Position numbers and translations under genes: made by a program. This document shows positions 1-9,472 of a stretch of 64,000 nucleotides of DNA, piece by piece. Origin of the DNA: Haloprofundus halobius (GTDB taxonomy: Archaea; Halobacteriota; Halobacteria; Halobacteriales; Haloferacaceae); contig NZ_CP083666.1 in assembly GCF_020097835.1 (NCBI RefSeq), positions 3,038,001 through 3,102,000 on the forward strand, in the 5' to 3' direction. Numbering within the stretch: the first letter of the stretch is position 1; each line of letters opens with the position of its first letter. The notes under the pieces were generated by a model that saw only the letters and a list, made by a program, of their open reading frames with translations, had not been told where the DNA came from and did not search any database.

Positions 1-941
1 ACGAGGACTACATCGCAGAGCCGGTCAAAGAACGTGAGGTCTTCGAGGAGTTCAATGGGACCTTGTTTTTAGATTCTGGAGGATTCAAATTCCTCGGTGG
101 ATACGAACTCGACGGCAGCAATTTCGAAGTCGAGATTGATCAAGCGAAAATCTTCGAGATTCAACAGCGGATGGGTGGCGATATCATCGTCAACTTAGAC
201 CGCCCAATCGCACCGGACGACGACTACGAAACCAGGGTCGAGAAGGCCCGACGGACCGCAGAGAACGTCGTTGAATTTCTCAATCTCTCAGAAGGGACGA
301 TGAGTGCGCGCTTCTTGACGCTCCATGGGTACAACTACTCCATGCTGGACACCTTTCTCGGGGAAATCGACGATATAGTCGGTGCTTCGCGAGTACACGA
401 CGAGTTCGATGGTGTGGCGTTGGGTAGCCTCGTTCCGCTCAAGGATAACAAGGGTCGCCTCATAGACGCGATTCAGGACTGCCGGTCCATACTGAAGGAC
501 TGGGGGTTCGACGACTTGCCGCTTCACGTACTGGGAATTTCGTCGAGTGCGATCCCCCTCTTAGCAGCGGTTGGCGCGGACTCTTTCGACTCCTCGTCGT
601 ACCTTCACTCTGCAATCAACGGAAAGTACAATACCTCTTTGACAGGGTCGAAATCGATTGACGAAGTCGATTTTAGCAAGTGCAACTGTCCAGTCTGCTC
701 TAACGAGGTACTGGTGAGTCGAATGAAGGGTAATGCCGAATACCGAAAAGACGAACTCGGACCAGTAGCGATGCATAATCTCATCGTCCAAAAACGCGAG
801 GTGGCCTATATCAGGGACTGCATCCGCTCACCGGGAACAGACGACCTCATCGAATATCTCGAATCGACACTCGGACAGAACAAATCAATGCGGCTGTTTG
901 CACACCGCGTTGTAAACGAATCGCTCGGCGGGTACTTCTAA
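1..941 (+). CDS. tRNA-guanine transglycosylase-like (DpdA/TGT family) enzyme, 5'-truncated
   Basis: Seen: the frame is open from base 3, so the gene starts left of the window; 312 residues are visible. Numbering from base 63, there is a D-S-G-G-F motif at residues 4-8 (the base-side Asp of TGTs), I-V-N-L-D at 42-46, G-V-A-L-G at 117-121, G-A-D-S-F-D at 171-176 with the expected nucleophile D176 followed by a TGT-like N-G motif, and a C-x-C-x2-C-x25-H zinc site (C207, C209, C212, H238). Family knowledge: TGT enzymes swap a guanine for a 7-deazaguanine; DpdA paralogues do this in DNA, and TGT-like Cap10 proteins occur in type IV CBASS. The usual archaeal tRNA enzyme has PUA-type C-terminal domains, absent here. 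The stop is one base before the GHKL ATPase start, so they share a transcript. Inference: a DNA or nucleotide modification enzyme of a defence locus. Family sure, substrate unknown. Confidence 0.82.
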   Translation, partial: EDYIAEPVKEREVFEEFNGTLFLDSGGFKFLGGYELDGSNFEVEIDQAKIFEIQQRMGGDIIVNLDRPIAPDDDYETRVEKARRTAENVVEFLNLSEGTMSARFLTLHGYNYSMLDTFLGEIDDIVGASRVHDEFDGVALGSLVPLKDNKGRLIDAIQDCRSILKDWGFDDLPLHVLGISSSAIPLLAAVGADSFDSSSYLHSAINGKYNTSLTGSKSIDEVDFSKCNCPVCSNEVLVSRMKGNAEYRKDELGPVAMHNLIVQKREVAYIRDCIRSPGTDDLIEYLESTLGQNKSMRLFAHRVVNESLGGYF

Positions 942-942
942 C

Positions 943-2520
943 ATGCAAGAAACGACTCCAGAGAAACAGACGAGGAAACGACCGAAAGTCAACGAGGTAA
1001 ACGAGTTTTTGGAGATTGCGAGCGACTTCGAGGACCCGCTCGAAGTTATTCGTGAAGCGCTTTCGAACAGTTACGACGCTGGGGCGACGGAGGTAGAAAT
1101 CAGTATTAAGAGCCGTGCTCAGGAGTCAGAAATCATCATCGAGGATAACGGTCGAGGTATGTCTGAGTCGGATCTCGAATCGTTCTTCGACCTCGGTAAT
1201 TCAACGAAGAGTGATCCTGAGCACGACTCAATTGGATACAAGGGGCACGGAACAAAGATTCTCTACAAGAGTAACCAAATCATCGTTGACACGGCCCAAG
1301 AGGGGAAAAACCTCCACGCTGTGATGGACAAGCCGTGGGACACACTCAACAATCGAGAGCTCCCTGAGTACGAGGTTACTGAGTCAACGACGCGTCCGGG
1401 TAATGATGGAACGCGCATCAAGGTAACCGGCTTTAAATCTGGTCGCGGCTTCGCGCCTGAGTCACTCACATACAACAAAATCGAACACTACCTCAAGTGG
1501 AAGACGTTAGCTGGGTCGACGAAGTATCACTTCCATCCAGAGCAGTTCCGTGATCTCGAAATCACCGTAAGGCTTGACGACGGGATCGACGACTCGCGAG
1601 AGAGGTTAGTCACGAACAACAAGCTGGAGTTCCCGGAGGAACAGCTTGATCCCGGTGAGGAGCCGTTCCCGGAAGCTCGGATGTGTAAGCATTACGGGCC
1701 GAAAACCCTCCAGATAGAGGCGGATAACGGTGAGACGACTGAATTGGAGGTCGTCGGAATGGTTGGGGGTAAGGATGCTAGAGATGAGCTTCCGACGTAC
1801 GGTCGACACTCCGCGCAATTCGGGATCTGGCTCGCTAAAGATCACATCAAGGTTGAACGGCTCAACGAGGCAATATCGCACGATAACGAGTTTATTCACT
1901 TCCTCTTCATCGCGAACTCCCAAGACATAGAACTCTCGGCGAACCGAGAGAAGATTCGTAACAAGTCGAGCGCCATCTACCAAGCGATCGAAACGGAACT
2001 CAACTACTTCCTGTCGAAGGTTGCCGCCGATCCGTGGTTTAAAGGGTATCTCGAACAGCGACGGGTTGCGGAGTTGAATCGGAAGGCATCGACCCAACAA
2101 AAGTCCGTGGAAGAACGGAAAAAAGCGGTGACTGAACGTGGACGTTTCGAGGCAACGAATCAATCTGAAGTCATCCTCGGTCTAGAACGGTCAAACAGAG
2201 AGGGAGCGAAGCCGACAATCACCGTCGAAGACTTCGACTTGGGTGCGGACGTGAACGCACTCGTCGAACAGAACGGTCGTCTCTACGGGAGTTCAGTGCA
2301 TCTGAAGCTCACTGATCACTTTGAAGAAGACAAACCGCTCGAGAGTGTAGGAAAGATCCTCTGCTGGGAGATCGGCGATCGAGACAAGCTCCGCGAGATC
2401 GAACGTCGCGGGTATCAGAATGGACACGTAGAATTTGACCTCGAGAGCAACCGAATTACGTACGGTACCAAGTCTCGGCACACCATTCACATCGTCGAAG
2501 TTCCCTCACGATTCGACTAA
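943..2520 (+). CDS. GHKL-type (Hsp90/MORC-like) ATPase of the accessory island
   Basis: Seen: 525 residues with a complete Bergerat ATP fold. The N-box helix has E38, N42 and D45; the G1 box D-N-G-R-G is at 68-72; the G2-type lid G-Y-K-G-H-G is at 98-103, with a G-N-S-T-K-S motif before it. The C-terminal half has no recognised domain but carries charged, probably helical segments at about 345-410. Family knowledge: GHKL ATPases (MutL, MORC, Hsp90, gyrase B) dimerise on ATP and act as clamps, and are common sensors or switches in phage defence. No histidine-kinase phosphoacceptor domain is visible. The ATG lies one base after the TGT-like stop codon, so the two are translated together. Codons are more AT-rich than in genes right of 8.8 kb, as expected for acquired DNA. 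Exact role not known. Confidence 0.85.
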   Translation: MQETTPEKQTRKRPKVNEVNEFLEIASDFEDPLEVIREALSNSYDAGATEVEISIKSRAQESEIIIEDNGRGMSESDLESFFDLGNSTKSDPEHDSIGYKGHGTKILYKSNQIIVDTAQEGKNLHAVMDKPWDTLNNRELPEYEVTESTTRPGNDGTRIKVTGFKSGRGFAPESLTYNKIEHYLKWKTLAGSTKYHFHPEQFRDLEITVRLDDGIDDSRERLVTNNKLEFPEEQLDPGEEPFPEARMCKHYGPKTLQIEADNGETTELEVVGMVGGKDARDELPTYGRHSAQFGIWLAKDHIKVERLNEAISHDNEFIHFLFIANSQDIELSANREKIRNKSSAIYQAIETELNYFLSKVAADPWFKGYLEQRRVAELNRKASTQQKSVEERKKAVTERGRFEATNQSEVILGLERSNREGAKPTITVEDFDLGADVNALVEQNGRLYGSSVHLKLTDHFEEDKPLESVGKILCWEIGDRDKLREIERRGYQNGHVEFDLESNRITYGTKSRHTIHIVEVPSRFD

Positions 2521-2722: not shown

Positions 2723-5257
2723 ATGAATATCGATAAGCTTGCGGACTCCATTGCTGATCAGAAAACTCCGCGCGAGATATTCCAAAAGGAGTGGCTCGGA
2801 GGGATGCCCGAAGCACAGTGGCCCTCGTACATTGATGAGTCAGCGACGTTGGTGATGGAAGGCATAACGATTGGCGACACAAATCTCACGAAGGGAGATT
2901 TTTCAAGTGAGACGGGTGATCTATATCGACGAGGACTGGCACGGACAACCGGAAGACAACGTTCGGAGACGAGCCTCCCTGTTGGAAGCGTATCTGGTCG
3001 TGACCTCGGAATCGTCATGTGGGCGCTCAATGGATTAAAAGAGGATATTGAGTCCTCACGACATACGAACTACACTTCGACGAGCCGAGCGGTGGAGGCT
3101 GTACTGAACAAGGCGATGATTGGGGCAGTCGCCGACCAGAAGTTCGACTATACAGACTTCGAGCGGATTCGTCTTCCGGAAGGAGCAGCCGTAACCGACC
3201 TCATGGCTGAACTCTTCTGTCGTCCGCGGAGCGATGCGTTTGTAGATGCGTTAGTAGAAATCTCAGAAGAGAGTCGACGGTCGGGAGAAAGCCTCCTACA
3301 GCTACTTGAACAACCGAAGATGGTGACCCCACTCTGGGAGCACCAACGAGAGGCACTCGCCGAATGGCTTGACTCCGGCTGTCGAGGATACGTCGACATG
3401 GCGACTGCAACTGGGAAGACGTTCCTCGGCCTTGCAACCATCGCACATCACTTCGGGGACTTACATCCGAATGATACCGATCTCACGCGAAAGAATCTCC
3501 GTCCAGACACAGACGGTGATGCAACCGTGGTCGTCGTCGCACACCGGTCGGTCATCCTCGACCAGTGGAAGCGAGAGTTCGACCGGCATCTCAATATCCC
3601 GAAAGAGGCGTCAGCTAGCGACGGAGAATACACGGCTCGCTATTCGTGGGGAGAGGTGCATTTCTGGACGCCAAATCGGTTGTTAGAAAGAGACGTCCCC
3701 GATGCTGACCTCGTCGTCCTCGACGAGACGCACCACTACGTCGGAGGAAGCGGCTTTGGTGCTCTCTTGGACCAGATGAGTGGTCATTTACTGGCGCTCT
3801 CGGGATCGCTCAACGAGAAGAACAGTAACACACTTGAGCGACGTCAGATACCGAAACTGTTCGAGTTCTCCCTCCGAGACGGCCAGCGTGTCGGGATTAT
3901 CCCCCAGTGTGATTGGCACGTCAGAATTGTCCCGTTCGAAGGCCAATCGACGCTCGCCGAGGTGACAGAGCAGTATCGTACCGGTTATGACCAGTACTCC
4001 GACGGATCAGCAGCGTCAGTTCTCGAAGACGTAGCTGATGCCCAGTTGTCTTTCAATTCGCTCTCTGAGGCACGGTCTGTTACGCAATCTCGATACGGTC
4101 GAGAAGTGAAGGAGCGCGACGACAACTTCCGGAAGTTCTCTGCTGCAACCAAGTCTCGGGGGTTGACAAAGTACAATCTCTCGCCGACGCTCTCTGCGAT
4201 CACGACCATCACGCTAAACCACGTTCACGACCACAAATGCGTAGTCCTCCTCAACTCCGGAGATGAGATTGAAACCGTCGTCTCGGGACTGCGCAGAGAA
4301 CTGGGCGAAAACTTCGACGACCTCGTGATCGACCTCGATAGTTACGATGGTGACCCGCTTGAGGCAATCGAGTCGTTCGACGAGAAGCGGGAGGTGGGTG
4401 TGATTATCGGAACCGCCTCCACACTCGGAGAGGGTGTCGACATCAAAACCGCAGACGTCGGGATCAACCGTTCAAGCGGTCGCCTTAGCCACTCGCTCGT
4501 CCAACGAATTGGTCGAATCCTTAGGAACCCTGATGGCGACAAACGAGCGACCTTTTACCACGTTGTCGGGATTCCTACAGAGGAGGACGCAGTACTCCTC
4601 AAAGAGGACGGACAGGAATTGCTCGACATGGCGAGTCAGCTCGTCACTTGGGGAGAATCGTTCGACGCCCGACCTGGGTTCGAGACGATGGGGGTTGGTG
4701 TCGACGAGTCACTCTACCAACTCGAACAGCACGGAGCGCACGGGATTCTTGAATCGGATTCCTACTCCTGGCCGACGAACGAAAACGCTCGAGAACGACT
4801 TCTCGGCATCTGTGAAGAGATCCGCGGAAGTGAGGAGTCAGTTCTCCTCAAAATGGACCCTCAGCTCACGTCTGGCACACGACCATCGAACAGGACGAAC
4901 TACGTTTCGAGTCACAGTGATTCGAAGATTGAGCTTCCAATGACTCTCTTGAAGGCCGTTTCAGAGCACGTTGAGGGGAACGCCTCTATCGGTCACGATA
5001 GTCGATTCATTGAACAGGCCATTCGAGAAGGACTCGAAGAAATTGAGATTACGAAAATAGGCGACAGTGAATCTGATTCGAACACAGACTTCTTGAGCGC
5101 CGTCGAGATCAACCCAGTACTCTGTTCAGTGCTGCGAGTCGCGCTCGCGTCAACCGGAGTATCGTCCAGCGAGTTCGCTCAGATGGCGGTCAAGAAAGCC
5201 CTCTCCAAACATGTCACTAACAATAAGGGCGCATTCGACGCGAGCACGTTACAATGA
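2723..5257 (+). CDS. DEAD/DEAH-type superfamily 2 helicase
   Basis: Seen: 844 residues. After an N-terminal region of about 200 residues without a recognised domain comes an H-Q-R-E (Q-like) motif near 214, a Walker A variant M-A-T-A-T-G-K-T at 226-233, D-E-T-H (motif II) at 334-337, an S-G-S motif III, a G-E-G-V-D-I motif V, and Q-R-I-G-R-I-L-R (motif VI) at 594-601. This order fits the type III restriction/UvrB-like branch of SF2. Residues about 734-775 resemble a ribbon-helix-helix-like segment. Family knowledge: such helicases translocate on DNA or RNA and drive many defence systems. No nuclease motif is seen in the chain. The start is supported by a strong Shine-Dalgarno-like site. The stop overlaps the next gene start by four bases (ATGA), so translation of the two is coupled. 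Confidence 0.88.
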   Translation: MNIDKLADSIADQKTPREIFQKEWLGGMPEAQWPSYIDESATLVMEGITIGDTNLTKGDFSSETGDLYRRGLARTTGRQRSETSLPVGSVSGRDLGIVMWALNGLKEDIESSRHTNYTSTSRAVEAVLNKAMIGAVADQKFDYTDFERIRLPEGAAVTDLMAELFCRPRSDAFVDALVEISEESRRSGESLLQLLEQPKMVTPLWEHQREALAEWLDSGCRGYVDMATATGKTFLGLATIAHHFGDLHPNDTDLTRKNLRPDTDGDATVVVVAHRSVILDQWKREFDRHLNIPKEASASDGEYTARYSWGEVHFWTPNRLLERDVPDADLVVLDETHHYVGGSGFGALLDQMSGHLLALSGSLNEKNSNTLERRQIPKLFEFSLRDGQRVGIIPQCDWHVRIVPFEGQSTLAEVTEQYRTGYDQYSDGSAASVLEDVADAQLSFNSLSEARSVTQSRYGREVKERDDNFRKFSAATKSRGLTKYNLSPTLSAITTITLNHVHDHKCVVLLNSGDEIETVVSGLRRELGENFDDLVIDLDSYDGDPLEAIESFDEKREVGVIIGTASTLGEGVDIKTADVGINRSSGRLSHSLVQRIGRILRNPDGDKRATFYHVVGIPTEEDAVLLKEDGQELLDMASQLVTWGESFDARPGFETMGVGVDESLYQLEQHGAHGILESDSYSWPTNENARERLLGICEEIRGSEESVLLKMDPQLTSGTRPSNRTNYVSSHSDSKIELPMTLLKAVSEHVEGNASIGHDSRFIEQAIREGLEEIEITKIGDSESDSNTDFLSAVEINPVLCSVLRVALASTGVSSSEFAQMAVKKALSKHVTNNKGAFDASTLQ

Positions 5258-8200
5258 ATTTACGAATCGAAGCCGAAGTTAGTCGGCTTACGCAGTGGAA
5301 CCGCCGGTCGCGATTACTGAAAGCCGGTGTGTTAATGGTGATTGTAGCGATTGTCGGCGCTCTACTCTGGGATTTTGAACAGGCCACGGCTCTCGCACTC
5401 ACCAGTTTTATTTCGTATATTCTGCTCGGACTTCTCATCTCGTTTGGATGGGTAACGTATCGACGGAAACAGGCGGTAGCATCGGTTGAGACTGCGGCAA
5501 AGGAACACTTGGCACAAGAACGAGAGCGTATCGACGACGACCTCAATAAGGGTGCAGTAGAGAGTGCAACGGTCCGCGTTGAATCGCTCGAACAGACGTA
5601 CCAATTTCTCGTAGACGATGTAGAATCAGAGAGGCTCCGAACGGAAGTTGAGTCTTACCTTACAGCTATCGATGAATTACGGACACGGGTTGAGAAGGGG
5701 ACTGCTGAGTGGGAAACGCTATCTAGCTCAATCGAACTTGTCAAGGAAAAACTGGACGCGGCTGAAAATGAGTACGAGGCTGAAAACTTCGATTCAGCAC
5801 TAGAGATATATCGCACACTCGAACCCGCAATAGAGGATCTCTCGTCAGCAACTCTCACAGTTACATCGTCCTCTGGAGACGCCTTACCGCCCGTCGAAAC
5901 GGTATCCTCGAAATATTGGCGTGGCTATTTCCAAACAACGCTGACAGTCGGCTACATTCAAATGCAGGAAGGGGACGAACTCCTGTCCCAGTCGGCTCAA
6001 AACGCGTGTAAGACGTACCAAGAGGCCACGAAAAATGTCGAGCAGGCCGTAGATCTCGCAGAGTCGGAAGACATCACCTACAACGATATTGACTTCCTTG
6101 GCTCGCCGATACCTCAGCCAACACTAACTGACATAGATGGTATTGGGGAACAGCGAGCAGACTCACTACGTGACCACGGCATCGAGTCGCCAGTAGACAT
6201 CGTCGAAGCCAATTCTCTCTCTCATATCCCTCGGATTGGAGAGAAAACAGAGCGACGCCTCCGCCGTTCTGCTGAGTCTCTAGTCGAGAATTTCCTGGAA
6301 GTTCAACACGGGAAGGCACACACGAAGTATTCGAAGCTAAACGACTGGGTCTGCCTTCACGATGAGAGTGTTGGTCTACTGGAAAAGGCTGAGGACGCAG
6401 TTGTCAAAGCGCGCACAAACCTTCTAGACGGAAAAGACGAGGAGACGGGATCTGAGTTACAAAAGGCAGATCAGATTACTGATGAAGTAGAGAGTAAACT
6501 ACGCTCGCTCGTAGAGAACGAGTTTCAAGTGGAACTTTCCACACAAGTCGACGAACTCCACAACCAGTTGACACGTGTAAATCAGTCTATACGACTTCTC
6601 TCTTCGATTACTGCCTGTAACGAGCAGATCGGAATTAGCGAATCAGCGATTCAAGATGGAAATTTCACCTCTGCACTCGACCACGTGAATCGTGGTAAGA
6701 AACACCTCGATGCGGCAAATCAAATCACCACGCAGTTGAGCGAACACGAATGGACTCAACCAGTCGAGCGCCGTAGAGAAAAGCTCGACAGACTGGACAA
6801 TCAGATACACGCTGAACTTGAGACACAGAAAATCGAAAAACGACTCGATGAAGCAGAGCGTGATATCGAGCACGCAATCAATGGCCTCGGTGAGGATACG
6901 ACCGCGGTCGACATTGAAGCTTCAGTTGATCATCTCGAGTCGGCAGTAAGTACCATCAAAACGGTTCAACCCATCGTCGAGAGTGTCGGCGGAGCAGCAC
7001 AAGAACGGTTGGAGTGCTTGGCGAACCAAGCCGAGGAGACCGAAGAGTTAGTTGAGCGGTATCGAAACTCACTAGAATTCGATTCGTTGATTGAATCGGT
7101 CGAAGAGCAGATCAAAGCTGGCGTCGAAGCGAGTAAAGAGGGCTCGTATCAAAGTTCGAGTGGACACTTTGGGCACGCGAAACAAGAGCTAAATGCGGCG
7201 ACTGAACTCGTCGGAAAAGTCGACCGAAGCGATGCTGGTAAACAGGTCAGACAGTTATCTCGCCGTTTGGAAAGCGAGCGCTCCGACGCGCTCCGACGGA
7301 AGCATTTCAGTATTTGTTGGAGCTTGATGGAACGCGCAGAGAAAGCAGTCGCTCGAGCCATTGACCACCTCGAAACCAACGCGTACGATGACGCAGCGAA
7401 GGGGTTCACTGAGGCGATAGAACATCTATCTGACGCCGAACAGTGGGCTCAGAGATCCGACTTAGCAGAACAATGGGAGATCAAGCAACGCCTAGACACA
7501 CTCTGTGAGTACAGGTCGAATGCCGAGTCGTCTCTCGAAACGTATCTAAAGCGCCGCTCGTCGGAGGCTGCCCAGCATCTCGACAGAGCAAATCAACTCA
7601 TCTCGAAGAGCCACCAGCAACTCGATATTGAGGACGCGAGTGCAGCGAACGAGAGCTGGATGACCGCTCGCGACTCGCTGGATACGGCCAAGGAAATAAT
7701 CGGTAATTCGCAGCTGCAAAATGCCGCGAATCTCGAGGAAAGACACCGTGAGACGGAAAGACGTCTCACAGAGTTGCGAAACGCTATCGAACGGTCTGGG
7801 TACGACATTTCCGGAGCAAGCCGTACTAGGCTCGTTGATGAACTCCAAGAACTGGCGGTGACCATCGGAGAATCCCCGCGAGAAGAGTTCGTCGACGCCT
7901 GTGGGAGGTACCCCTCAGACGAGTACGTAGAGATGTTCGGCTCGTGGGAGGATGCACTTCGTGCAGCTAACTTGGAACCGGTCGACTGGGCCTCCAGAAA
8001 TCGACGCAAATACACTCGTGTCGATATCCTTGAGTCGGTCGCCGAACTGACGAGGACATTCGGTCGATACCCGACCAAGGCCGAGATGAACGACCAAGGT
8101 TCAATGTCCGTTTCAACGGTAGAGACTCGGTTTGGGACGTGGGAGAGCGCCCTCGATCTGGCTGAGCGCATTGAGCTTAGTTCGGAGTTGTCGAGAGATG

Positions 8201-8403
8201 ACGCAGTTGCCGAACTCACCGGGATTAGTGGCGTGACAGCGACTGAAGCGTCGATACTCTACGATGCCGGGTTGACCTCGGTTATAGATGTACAGAAAGC
8301 GACGATGGAGAATCTCCTCGCTATTGATGGAATCTCAAAACAAATCGCGTTGCGGATGAAAGCCGACGTTGGTGAGCTAACTACGGAGTCCCAAGTGCGT
8401 TAG
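5254..8403 (+). CDS. Large membrane-anchored coiled-coil protein with HhH domains and HNH-associated repeats
   Basis: Seen: 1049 residues. Two hydrophobic segments (about 22-39 and 44-67) anchor the N-terminus. A very long acidic helical region follows, rich in heptad-like E, L, A and R patterns. It is interrupted at about 288-346 by a double helix-hairpin-helix (I-D-G-I-G and I-P-R-I-G hairpins). Near the C-terminus are two copies (about 858-908 and 920-972) of a repeat ending in F-G-S-W / F-G-T-W-E-x-A-L, which matches the homing-endonuclease-associated repeat, then a final HhH pair at about 988-1040. No catalytic nuclease motif is visible. Family knowledge: HhH and these repeats bind DNA. 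Inference: it tethers DNA or the helicase complex to the membrane, or senses invading DNA there. The architecture is not one I recognise from a named system. Confidence 0.8.
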   Translation: MNLRIEAEVSRLTQWNRRSRLLKAGVLMVIVAIVGALLWDFEQATALALTSFISYILLGLLISFGWVTYRRKQAVASVETAAKEHLAQERERIDDDLNKGAVESATVRVESLEQTYQFLVDDVESERLRTEVESYLTAIDELRTRVEKGTAEWETLSSSIELVKEKLDAAENEYEAENFDSALEIYRTLEPAIEDLSSATLTVTSSSGDALPPVETVSSKYWRGYFQTTLTVGYIQMQEGDELLSQSAQNACKTYQEATKNVEQAVDLAESEDITYNDIDFLGSPIPQPTLTDIDGIGEQRADSLRDHGIESPVDIVEANSLSHIPRIGEKTERRLRRSAESLVENFLEVQHGKAHTKYSKLNDWVCLHDESVGLLEKAEDAVVKARTNLLDGKDEETGSELQKADQITDEVESKLRSLVENEFQVELSTQVDELHNQLTRVNQSIRLLSSITACNEQIGISESAIQDGNFTSALDHVNRGKKHLDAANQITTQLSEHEWTQPVERRREKLDRLDNQIHAELETQKIEKRLDEAERDIEHAINGLGEDTTAVDIEASVDHLESAVSTIKTVQPIVESVGGAAQERLECLANQAEETEELVERYRNSLEFDSLIESVEEQIKAGVEASKEGSYQSSSGHFGHAKQELNAATELVGKVDRSDAGKQVRQLSRRLESERSDALRRKHFSICWSLMERAEKAVARAIDHLETNAYDDAAKGFTEAIEHLSDAEQWAQRSDLAEQWEIKQRLDTLCEYRSNAESSLETYLKRRSSEAAQHLDRANQLISKSHQQLDIEDASAANESWMTARDSLDTAKEIIGNSQLQNAANLEERHRETERRLTELRNAIERSGYDISGASRTRLVDELQELAVTIGESPREEFVDACGRYPSDEYVEMFGSWEDALRAANLEPVDWASRNRRKYTRVDILESVAELTRTFGRYPTKAEMNDQGSMSVSTVETRFGTWESALDLAERIELSSELSRDDAVAELTGISGVTATEASILYDAGLTSVIDVQKATMENLLAIDGISKQIALRMKADVGELTTESQVR

Positions 8404-8694
8404 CTTCCACATAGGAAAGCGCTCTAAAATTCGGGCAAATGCATATTTTCAATGCTTTGTATATCGATGTCTCTGGACTATCCCTGATTCATCCTTCTCC
8501 ACGGAGATCTCTACTGAAGTGGCGATTCTCCTCACCGCTAGAATTAAGTCAGACTACGTACCATTTGATTCCAGCGAACCGCAAGACGGCAGTGCCGCCG
8601 CCATACTACATAACGAACTCCAGAGGGTGGAGGGAGGTGTTCTTTATAAGCACCTCTCCGCCGTCTGTTGATCCGGAAGCGCTATGAATTAGAA
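8404..8694. other. Gene-free stretch between island and tRNA-Arg
   Basis: No convincing gene is seen. The short open frames here have compositions unlike haloarchaeal proteins. The only structure is an inverted repeat, GAGGTG (8634-8639) and CACCTC (8651-8656), separated by an AT-rich spacer that reads like a TATA element. It may be a transcription end for the island or an unrelated hairpin. The composition stays AT-richer than the chromosome to the right, so the stretch probably belongs to the island. Confidence 0.4.
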
Positions 8695-8767
8695 CGGACC
8701 CGACGGGATTTGAACCCGCGACATCTTGGTCCGGAACCAAGCACTCTGTCCACTGAGCTACGGGCCC
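8695..8767 (-). tRNA. tRNA-Arg (anticodon CCG)
   Basis: The minus strand folds into a full cloverleaf of 73 bases: acceptor stem GGGCCCG with CGGGTCC, anticodon stem CTTGG/CCAAG around the loop TTCCGGA (anticodon CCG), T-loop TTCAAAT, discriminator G. No CCA is encoded and no intron is seen. The 3' end points left into the AT-rich island, the usual arrangement when an integrase has used a tRNA 3' end as its attachment site. Confidence 0.95.
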
Positions 8768-8881
8768 TCACCCAAACGTACAGGACAACTGGCTATAACG
8801 GTTGTGACCTGTCTCTCGGCATTGGCAATCGTTTGACAGCTATCGACAGAAGAGAGAAGAAATCCGAAACTCGTCGACCGA

Positions 8882-9472
8882 TTACGGCGCGGTTCCGGTC
8901 TCGATGGAGAAGTCCGCACGCGGGTAGGCGACGCAGGTGAGCGTGTAGCCGTCGTCGAGTTCGCCGTCGTCGAGCATCTGCTGGTTGTCGTGGACGACGT
9001 AGTCCTCGGAGTTGCCGCCGGAGGTAATCTGCCCCGCACAGGAGACACACTGCCCCTGTCGGCAGGCGTACGGAAGGTCCCAGCCCTCCTCTTCGCCGGA
9101 TTCGAGGACGGTCTGATTGTTCGGAATCTCGATGGTCGCACCCTCCTTGACGAACTCGACCTCGAAGTATTCGACTTCGTCCTCGGGGATGTCGGCGGGA
9201 CTCGAACTCTCCTCTTGGGCTTCACCCTCTTCGAGTTCGCCCTCCTCGCCCGCTGCCGCGCCACCGACGGCGACGGCACCGCCGCCGCCGATAGAGCGGT
9301 TCATCGGTTCGGGAAAGTCCGTCTCGGGGACCGTCGACGCGCGCTGTTCGAGCACCTCTTGGGAGATGTCGGCGGTGGCCGCCCACCCCGTTCCCTTGGA
9401 GAAGTGCATCGCGACGGCGAGCGCCGTCAGCGCCGCGCCCAGTCCTAGCGCCACTGGGTCGATGAGAGCCAT
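8882..9472 (-). CDS. Membrane-anchored plant-type 2Fe-2S ferredoxin
   Basis: Seen: 196 residues. A hydrophobic N-terminal segment (about 5-22) is followed by an acidic, low-complexity linker rich in G, A and E, then a ferredoxin domain from about residue 95. The cluster ligands are in C-R-Q-G-Q-C-V-S-C (C-x4-C-x2-C), with the fourth Cys in L-T-C-V-A-Y-P near the end. Family knowledge: this fold carries one electron at low potential in many redox reactions; haloarchaeal forms often have an acidic insertion. The anchor and linker suggest electron transfer to a membrane partner. It has no operon partner here; the next gene on the same strand is 124 bases upstream of its start. Confidence 0.9.
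   Translation of the reverse strand: MALIDPVALGLGAALTALAVAMHFSKGTGWAATADISQEVLEQRASTVPETDFPEPMNRSIGGGGAVAVGGAAAGEEGELEEGEAQEESSSPADIPEDEVEYFEVEFVKEGATIEIPNNQTVLESGEEEGWDLPYACRQGQCVSCAGQITSGGNSEDYVVHDNQQMLDDGELDDGYTLTCVAYPRADFSIETGTAP

Follow-up and report, generated by a model that had tools for sequence, protein, structure and literature searches.

An extra TGT-fold enzyme encoded beside Dpd- and Druantia-like genes in Haloprofundus halobius as a candidate DNA-guanine transglycosylase of a BRIGADE-kind system

Does the TGT-fold protein encoded at the left edge of this stretch of the Haloprofundus halobius genome serve tRNA, or does it write a modified base into DNA? The stretch, here called the window, comprises 64,000 nucleotides (C1:3038001-3102000 of a 3.95 Mb genome), and the gene, designated TGT1, is cut by its left edge. 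The frame was extended leftward, as the first-pass annotation had proposed, and the start was found at C1:3037697. The full gene (C1:3037697-3038941, + strand) encodes 414 aa, of which the first 102 (304 bases) lie to the left of the window. The features of the locus are collected in Table 1.

Table 1 Features of the TGT1 locus and of the low-GC element around it, in window positions or in contig positions (C1).
Feature	Position	Strand	Description
Left copy of 16-bp direct repeat	C1:2975384-2975399		Exact match, left edge of low-GC element
Tyrosine integrase match	C1:2975855-2976412		35.6 bits, adjoins left repeat copy
PLD/DpdK-like nuclease	about C1:3012046-3012543	-	tblastn match, approximate ends
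DpdJ-like helicase	about C1:3012455-3016525	-	Best PADLOC match DpdJ, 3.7e-47
1477-aa AAA/SF1 helicase	C1:3017681-3022114	+	
DruE-like helicase	C1:3022184-3026917	+	Best PADLOC match DruE, 1.7e-41; MZB zinc domain
310-aa protein	about C1:3026914-3027846	+	Start picked from alignment
275-aa protein	C1:3027843-3028670	+	
DpdH-like ATPase	C1:3028667-3031603	+	
225-aa protein	C1:3031593-3032270	+	
TGT2	C1:3032315-3034366	-	TGT domain and ArcS-type domain; 3.3 kb left of TGT1
HNH_repeat/HHH protein	C1:3034434-3036692	-	
DUF6884/DpdC-like gene	C1:3037235-3037696	+	Stop just ahead of TGT1 start
TGT1	window 1..941	+	TGT-fold protein; ORF 3..941 open at left edge of window
GHKL ATPase, 525 aa	window 943..2520	+	MORC/Hsp90/GyrB-like ATPase and transducer; obligate TGT1 neighbour
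ResIII/DEAD helicase, PbeA-like	window 2723..5257	+	Sporadic neighbour, 6/30 regions
1049-aa protein	window 5254..8403	+	HHH and HNH_repeat domains, hydrophobic N-terminus; sporadic neighbour
Right copy of 16-bp direct repeat	window 8692..8707	.	At 3' end of tRNA-Arg(ccg)
tRNA-Arg(ccg)	window 8695..8767	-	Probable integration site, right edge of low-GC element

The Pfam TGT domain matched TGT1 with 88.4 bits (E 6.5e-25, cut-off 26.3) and was the sole Pfam domain of the protein. In a residue alignment of 21 of the 42 orthologues found, the DSGG motif (D126), D295, D298, and the zinc set C329/C331/C334/H360 were invariant in 21/21, and an LGGY tail at the C-terminal end was equally conserved. 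The first-pass claim that all catalytic and zinc motifs are kept was thus borne out; D126, D295, and D298 presumably have the catalytic roles that they have in known TGTs. TGT1 ends 54 residues beyond H360, in agreement with the earlier count of about 55, and Pfam detected no PUA domain in it. As neither TGT_C2 nor PUA was detected by Pfam in the genome's own TgtA either, the absence of PUA, on which the annotation had leaned, is by itself weak evidence on TGT1; both domains are present in the genome's own ArcS. The possibility that TGT1 is a truncated TgtA was ruled out, as the 42 orthologues match over nearly all of their length without stops and the 21 aligned ones share the LGGY tail.

An AlphaFold2 model of TGT1 based on the 21-sequence alignment (pLDDT 78.8) was superimposed over nearly its whole length on 6h62 (Z 32.5, rmsd 3.5, 342 aligned residues). 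It also matched TgtA of P. horikoshii (1iq8; Z 32.2, rmsd 3.3, 339 aligned residues, 25% identity), and TGTs alone were among the listed matches of the fold search.

The genome contains four TGT-fold frames, namely TgtA (C1:184806), ArcS (C1:186349), TGT1, and a second paralogue, TGT2. TGT1 is an extra TGT, beyond the genome's own TgtA and ArcS. The TgtA model TIGR00432 (cut-off 350) gave 623.2 bits for the genome's own TgtA and 113.6 bits, below the cut-off, for TGT1; the genome's own ArcS scored 855 bits with its NCBIfam model. With the curated DpdA model NF041059 (cut-off 200), TGT1 scored only 25.6 bits and is therefore called DpdA-like here, outside the family that the model defines. The PADLOC DpdA model matched 19/21 TGT1 members (best 2e-8).

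We compared these proteins in a tree of 43 rows, in which 14 of the 42 TGT1 and 11 TGT2-type sequences were included and DNA-type TGTs were represented by phage and cyanobacterial-plasmid sequences, used in place of canonical bacterial DpdA; L130 (wrong frame) and a 964-aa Haloferax plasmid protein were left out. TgtA (100/100), TGT1 (94/91), and TGT2 (86/98) each formed a group apart, and phage DpdA did not group with TGT1. A single group was not rejected for TGT1 with TGT2 (AU p 0.22) or for TGT1 with a short plasmid TGT (AU p 0.10). The deep joins are unsure because of the long branches of phage DpdA and bacterial Tgt.

The closest solved structures and the best family scores of TGT1 are those of tRNA TGTs. 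These would suit a second RNA transglycosylase, acting on tRNA or another RNA, that drifted into a defence island and, for example, modified tRNA during infection; the fold alone is silent on the substrate, and the missing PUA domain is not decisive. However, TGT1 and TgtA as one group were rejected (AU p 0.027), and TGT1 has an obligate MORC-like ATPase, a DpdC-like partner, and Dpd-type restriction neighbours, as described below, which makes an RNA substrate unlikely in our judgement. The first-pass annotation had asked whether TGT1 falls inside TgtA and whether the genome is devoid of another tgtA; both answers are negative, and in sequence TGT1 is separate from TgtA.

TGT1 was found in 42/391 Halobacteria genomes at E <= 5e-116, the next matches being TGT2 at 4e-41. 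A phylum-wide search at E<=1e-60 matched TGT1 in 10/392 genomes, all of this order or nearer, and a scan of genome contigs with strict peptide patterns gave 16 TGT1 loci, all haloarchaeal. A viral origin was also considered and rejected: five pattern stretches from viral contigs were not confirmed, and tblastn against phages gave one weak match, a 1.5-kb unverified record resembling a bacterial tgt fragment.

We tallied the neighbouring genes by tblastn over the regions of 30 of the 42 TGT1 genomes. A full GHKL ATPase gene was present in exactly the 42/391 genomes with TGT1, and in 42/42 it lay downstream on the same strand with 1-23 bases between the aligned parts; judged by gene content, the pairing of the two genes is obligate. 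One further genome has GHKL fragments and no TGT1 orthologue (G039:C3:176604-177489), which may be what is left of an operon copy. The model of the GHKL protein (pLDDT 81) matched MORC3, Hsp90, GyrB, and Topo VI-B over residues 16-373, with 5ix2 as the best match (Z 19.6, rmsd 3.7, 296 aligned residues), and only GHKL proteins were among the listed matches of its fold search. MORC-type ATPases work as DNA clamps. A DndB-type DpdB (PF14072) had no match anywhere in the genome.

The DUF6884 gene, the only one in this genome, was directly upstream of TGT1 on the same strand in 29/30 regions, and the 30th region ends inside TGT1. Its product matched PF21818 (DUF6884, 58.3 bits) and PF03883 (YaaA, 38.7 bits), both above the Pfam cut-offs, and the PADLOC DpdC models matched 22/22 aligned DUF6884 proteins (best 6e-8). 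DUF6884 is given as the dpdC domain in a 2025 preprint (PMC11888242), and according to a 2024 Pfam paper it resembles YaaA and probably has a cleft that binds DNA (PMC11701544).

The second paralogue, TGT2, combines a complete TGT domain with a DUF5591 domain at the C-terminus, the kind found in ArcS (71 bits); Pfam detected no TGT_C2 or PUA in it, and the NCBIfam ArcS model gave 105 bits, short of the 440 that its cut-off requires. The ArcS motif CSxxKPYxxS, which the genome's own ArcS also has, was invariant in 24/24 aligned TGT2 sequences. Two of these rows are exceptional elsewhere, L091 having Gln for an otherwise conserved His and L087 being without the zinc cysteines. TGT2 occurs in 38/391 Halobacteria genomes, 37 of which also have TGT1 (hypergeometric 3e-45), and the two genes are <=6 kb apart in 31 of these 37. 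The only TGT2 genome without TGT1 has its TGT2-type gene near a DpdJ-like helicase (G236:C5:60328-62211, L096-L097), and the 40-kb region around this gene contains no TGT1, GHKL, or DUF6884. ArcS of Thermococcus adds lysine to preQ0 even on the bare nucleotide, and RaSEA then converts the product to archaeosine (PMC11298593). A TGT that acts on DNA and has an ArcS domain attached could therefore leave preQ0-Lys or archaeosine there. Five genomes (G028, G142, G290, G295, and G370) have TGT1 without TGT2, and thus archaeosine cannot be the product everywhere.

Next to this operon, a fixed run of five genes (the DruE-like YprA helicase, the 310-aa and 275-aa proteins, the DpdH-like ATPase, and the 225-aa protein) was present near TGT1 in 15/30 regions. 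The DpdJ-like helicase was present in 16/30 and the DpdK-like PLD nuclease in 17/30, and all of them occur in this genome. The similarity to DpdH is low and confined to part of the protein (31.9 bits against a cut-off of 450). Three proteins of the run have no clear family; among them, the 275-aa protein had no PADLOC match in 14/14 members and the 310-aa protein had no Pfam match. In H. halobius the operon is also flanked by two proteins with HHH and HNH_repeat ('homing endonuclease associated repeat') domains, which have scattered relatives in other regions.

Genes for preQ0 synthesis were found near TGT1 in related genomes: QueC and QueE in 11/30 regions, QueD in 10/30, and FolE in 5/30. 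The first-pass annotation had suggested looking for 7-deazaguanine genes to the left of the window; in this genome none was found by tblastn within C1:3000001-3060000, and QueC lies at C1:963881. The system would here have to draw on the preQ0 of the tRNA pathway. The whole set, including two TGT2-type genes, is carried by a plasmid of Haladaptatus sp. YSMS36. The DpdC/DUF6884-, DpdJ-, DpdH-, and DpdK-like neighbours, together with the preQ0 genes of related loci, agree with the annotation's placing of TGT1 outside the normal archaeosine setting.

Other modules also accompany the TGT1 operon. HerA- and PglZ-like (phosphodiesterase) genes adjoin it in 4/30 regions, all without the five-gene run; DUF262/GmrSD-type genes occur in 9/30 regions and PbeC/DndD-like genes in 5/30, the one tested being PbeC (7e-229). 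Since these modules vary, the writer appears portable. The PbeC/DndD family is usually linked to phosphorothioate systems; its members stand beside the operon in G132, G152, G002, G267, and G326 (regions L044-L047, L070-L071, L084-L085, and L094-L095), with a PbeA-like gene in 4/5, possibly a coupling of two DNA marks. A different set was seen on a Haloferax alexandrinus plasmid (L118:4934-7828 and 7908-8942), where a TGT-annotated 964-aa protein with a C-terminal DUF6884-like domain and a 344-aa TGT lie near genes for a BrxC/D-like ATPase and a PTPS/QueD-like protein and near a DUF262 gene. L128, L129, and L119 contain TGTs closely related to the short one.

The locus is situated in DNA of low GC content (0.48-0.60 between about C1:2975.4 k and 3046.7 k), beyond which the GC content is mostly 0.63-0.72, with a further lower-GC patch at C1:2964-2972 k. 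The two copies of the 16-bp repeat, the tRNA-Arg gene, and the integrase match indicate that the defence locus is likely carried by a mobile element of ~71.3 kb bounded by tRNA-Arg. The att site is likely rather than proven, since parts of the tRNA-Arg end recur elsewhere in the genome.

Considering the intact active sites, the obligate pairing, the domain identities, and the separation from TgtA, all read from sequence, we propose that TGT1 fills the DpdA role, as the DNA-guanine transglycosylase in a BRIGADE-kind haloarchaeal base-modification and restriction system that places a self mark on host DNA, and we give this reading a probability of roughly 0.78. From here on, DNA as the substrate, the order of the steps, the final base, and restriction are what we infer. 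TGT1 would most likely replace selected guanines of the host DNA by preQ0, supplied by the tRNA pathway where local genes are absent. Because a DndB-type DpdB is missing from the genome, we cast the GHKL/MORC-like ATPase in DpdB's place, as an ATP-driven DNA-binding or clamp partner of TGT1; this is a guess from its position and modelled fold. The DUF6884 protein may process the base in the manner of DpdC or read it by base flipping, and TGT2 may either partner TGT1 or carry the inserted base on towards archaeosine (dG+). Unmarked DNA would be the target of the restriction side, made up of the DpdJ-like and Druantia-like helicases together with the DpdH-like ATPase and the PLD nuclease. The earlier suggestion of a DpdA or Cap10 relative therefore holds in part: a DpdA-like role is favoured by the context, the separate TgtA, and the tree, and membership in the curated DpdA family and kinship with Cap10 are not.

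The mark could instead be an attack, in which TGT1 puts a deazaguanine into invading DNA that is then processed by the helicases and nuclease. TGT1 always comes with GHKL and DUF6884 and has no fixed effector set (the five-gene module in 15/30 regions only), and a DUF6884 protein is reported among DNA-lesion interactors (PMC11701544), as this idea would expect. However, the same types of genes mark host DNA in the Dpd islands described (PMC11888242, PMC12839542). In several regions, moreover, the writer stands beside unrelated nuclease systems, as expected of a self mark, and we regard an attack on the invader as improbable, slightly more so than an RNA substrate. Cap10 is the TGT of CBASS, and a Cap10-type accessory protein is the least credible identity for TGT1 and was rejected: the PADLOC 'TGT' model, which we take to stand for the CBASS protein, matched 17/21 TGT1 members (best 1.8e-6), fewer and more weakly than the DpdA model, the genome has no match to the SMODS nucleotidyltransferase (PF18144), one family of the CD-NTases that the annotation had proposed to look for, and PADLOC found no CBASS cyclase among the locus proteins scanned.

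Returning to the DNA-writing reading, we tentatively extend it. The chromosomal DNA of some haloarchaea might itself contain archaeosine, or a preQ0 intermediate linked to lysine, as a label of self. The writer would be a portable cassette of DUF6884, TGT, MORC-like ATPase, and TGT-ArcS to which several restriction modules, unrelated to each other, have been joined one after another. Phages are reported to have archaeosine in their DNA (PMC6884629), and a 2024 paper states that archaeosine is found only in tRNA (PMC11298593); the open-licence literature searched gave no other account of an archaeal host that encodes a deazaguanine or dG+ system for DNA. A host-encoded archaeal writer, if true, would move archaeosine into cellular DNA, as a self mark missed by methylation surveys. 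An entire pathway of tRNA modification would then have been converted to writing on DNA, its archaeosine-synthase step being brought along by a gene fusion. DUF6884, TGT1, GHKL, and TGT2 offer a testable core for BRIGADE systems, the MORC-like ATPase is a candidate replacement for DpdB, and one writer is suggested to serve several restriction modules.

We compared this locus with known systems. The tRNA archaeosine enzymes share with it the TGT fold and active site and, in TGT2, the DUF5591 motif of ArcS, whereas they form separate tree groups and are encoded by other genes of this genome, and TGT2 is without the TGT_C2 and PUA domains of ArcS. Phage DpdA (phage 9g type) is likewise a TGT-fold enzyme used on DNA (PMC6884629); unlike it, TGT1 is longer, host-encoded, paired with an ATPase, and apart in the tree. 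In several phages (L123, Mycobacterium phage Hilltopfarm; H82, H84, and H87), the DpdA-like gene adjoins a ParB-like gene, a possible analogue of the ATPase/DpdB partner. BREX-Related Capture (BRC) systems, in which TGT genes are found with HerA and PglZ (NAR 2026, PMC12839542), resemble the four regions with HerA- and PglZ-like genes, whereas the genome of the window has a BRIGADE-type set; DUF6079 and DUF4007 were not confirmed by Pfam in the proteins tested. Bacterial Dpd islands (dpdA-K; PMC11888242, PMC12839542) share the writer of TGT and DUF6884/DpdC-like protein and the DpdJ-, DpdH-, and DpdK-like restriction genes. They differ in that here a GHKL ATPase stands in the operon and no DndB/DpdB in the genome, two TGT paralogues are present, one fused to ArcS, and TGT1 is below the curated DpdA cut-off.

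The closest likeness is to BRIGADE, which a preprint (Bell et al. 2025, PMC12458937) describes from halophilic archaea alone and leaves for detailed characterisation; its parts are a pair of YprA helicases, a cluster predicted to make 7-deazaguanine, and nucleases of the PLD or PD-(D/E)xK type. By the best family matches of its helicases, the locus fits BRIGADE Type I: it is haloarchaeal, its DruE and DpdJ best matches agree with an ARMADA/Druantia-like and a Dpd-branch YprA helicase, and it has the nuclease feature in its PLD/DpdK-like match, with 7-deazaguanine genes seen in related regions (QueC and QueE in 11/30). The words TGT, DpdA, and GHKL do not occur in the main text of that preprint. 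Beyond that main text, the present analysis contributes the composition of the writer, with GHKL and no DndB-type DpdB and with a fusion of TGT to ArcS, the occurrence of this writer with other effector modules as well, and its location on a tRNA-Arg element of ~71 kb.
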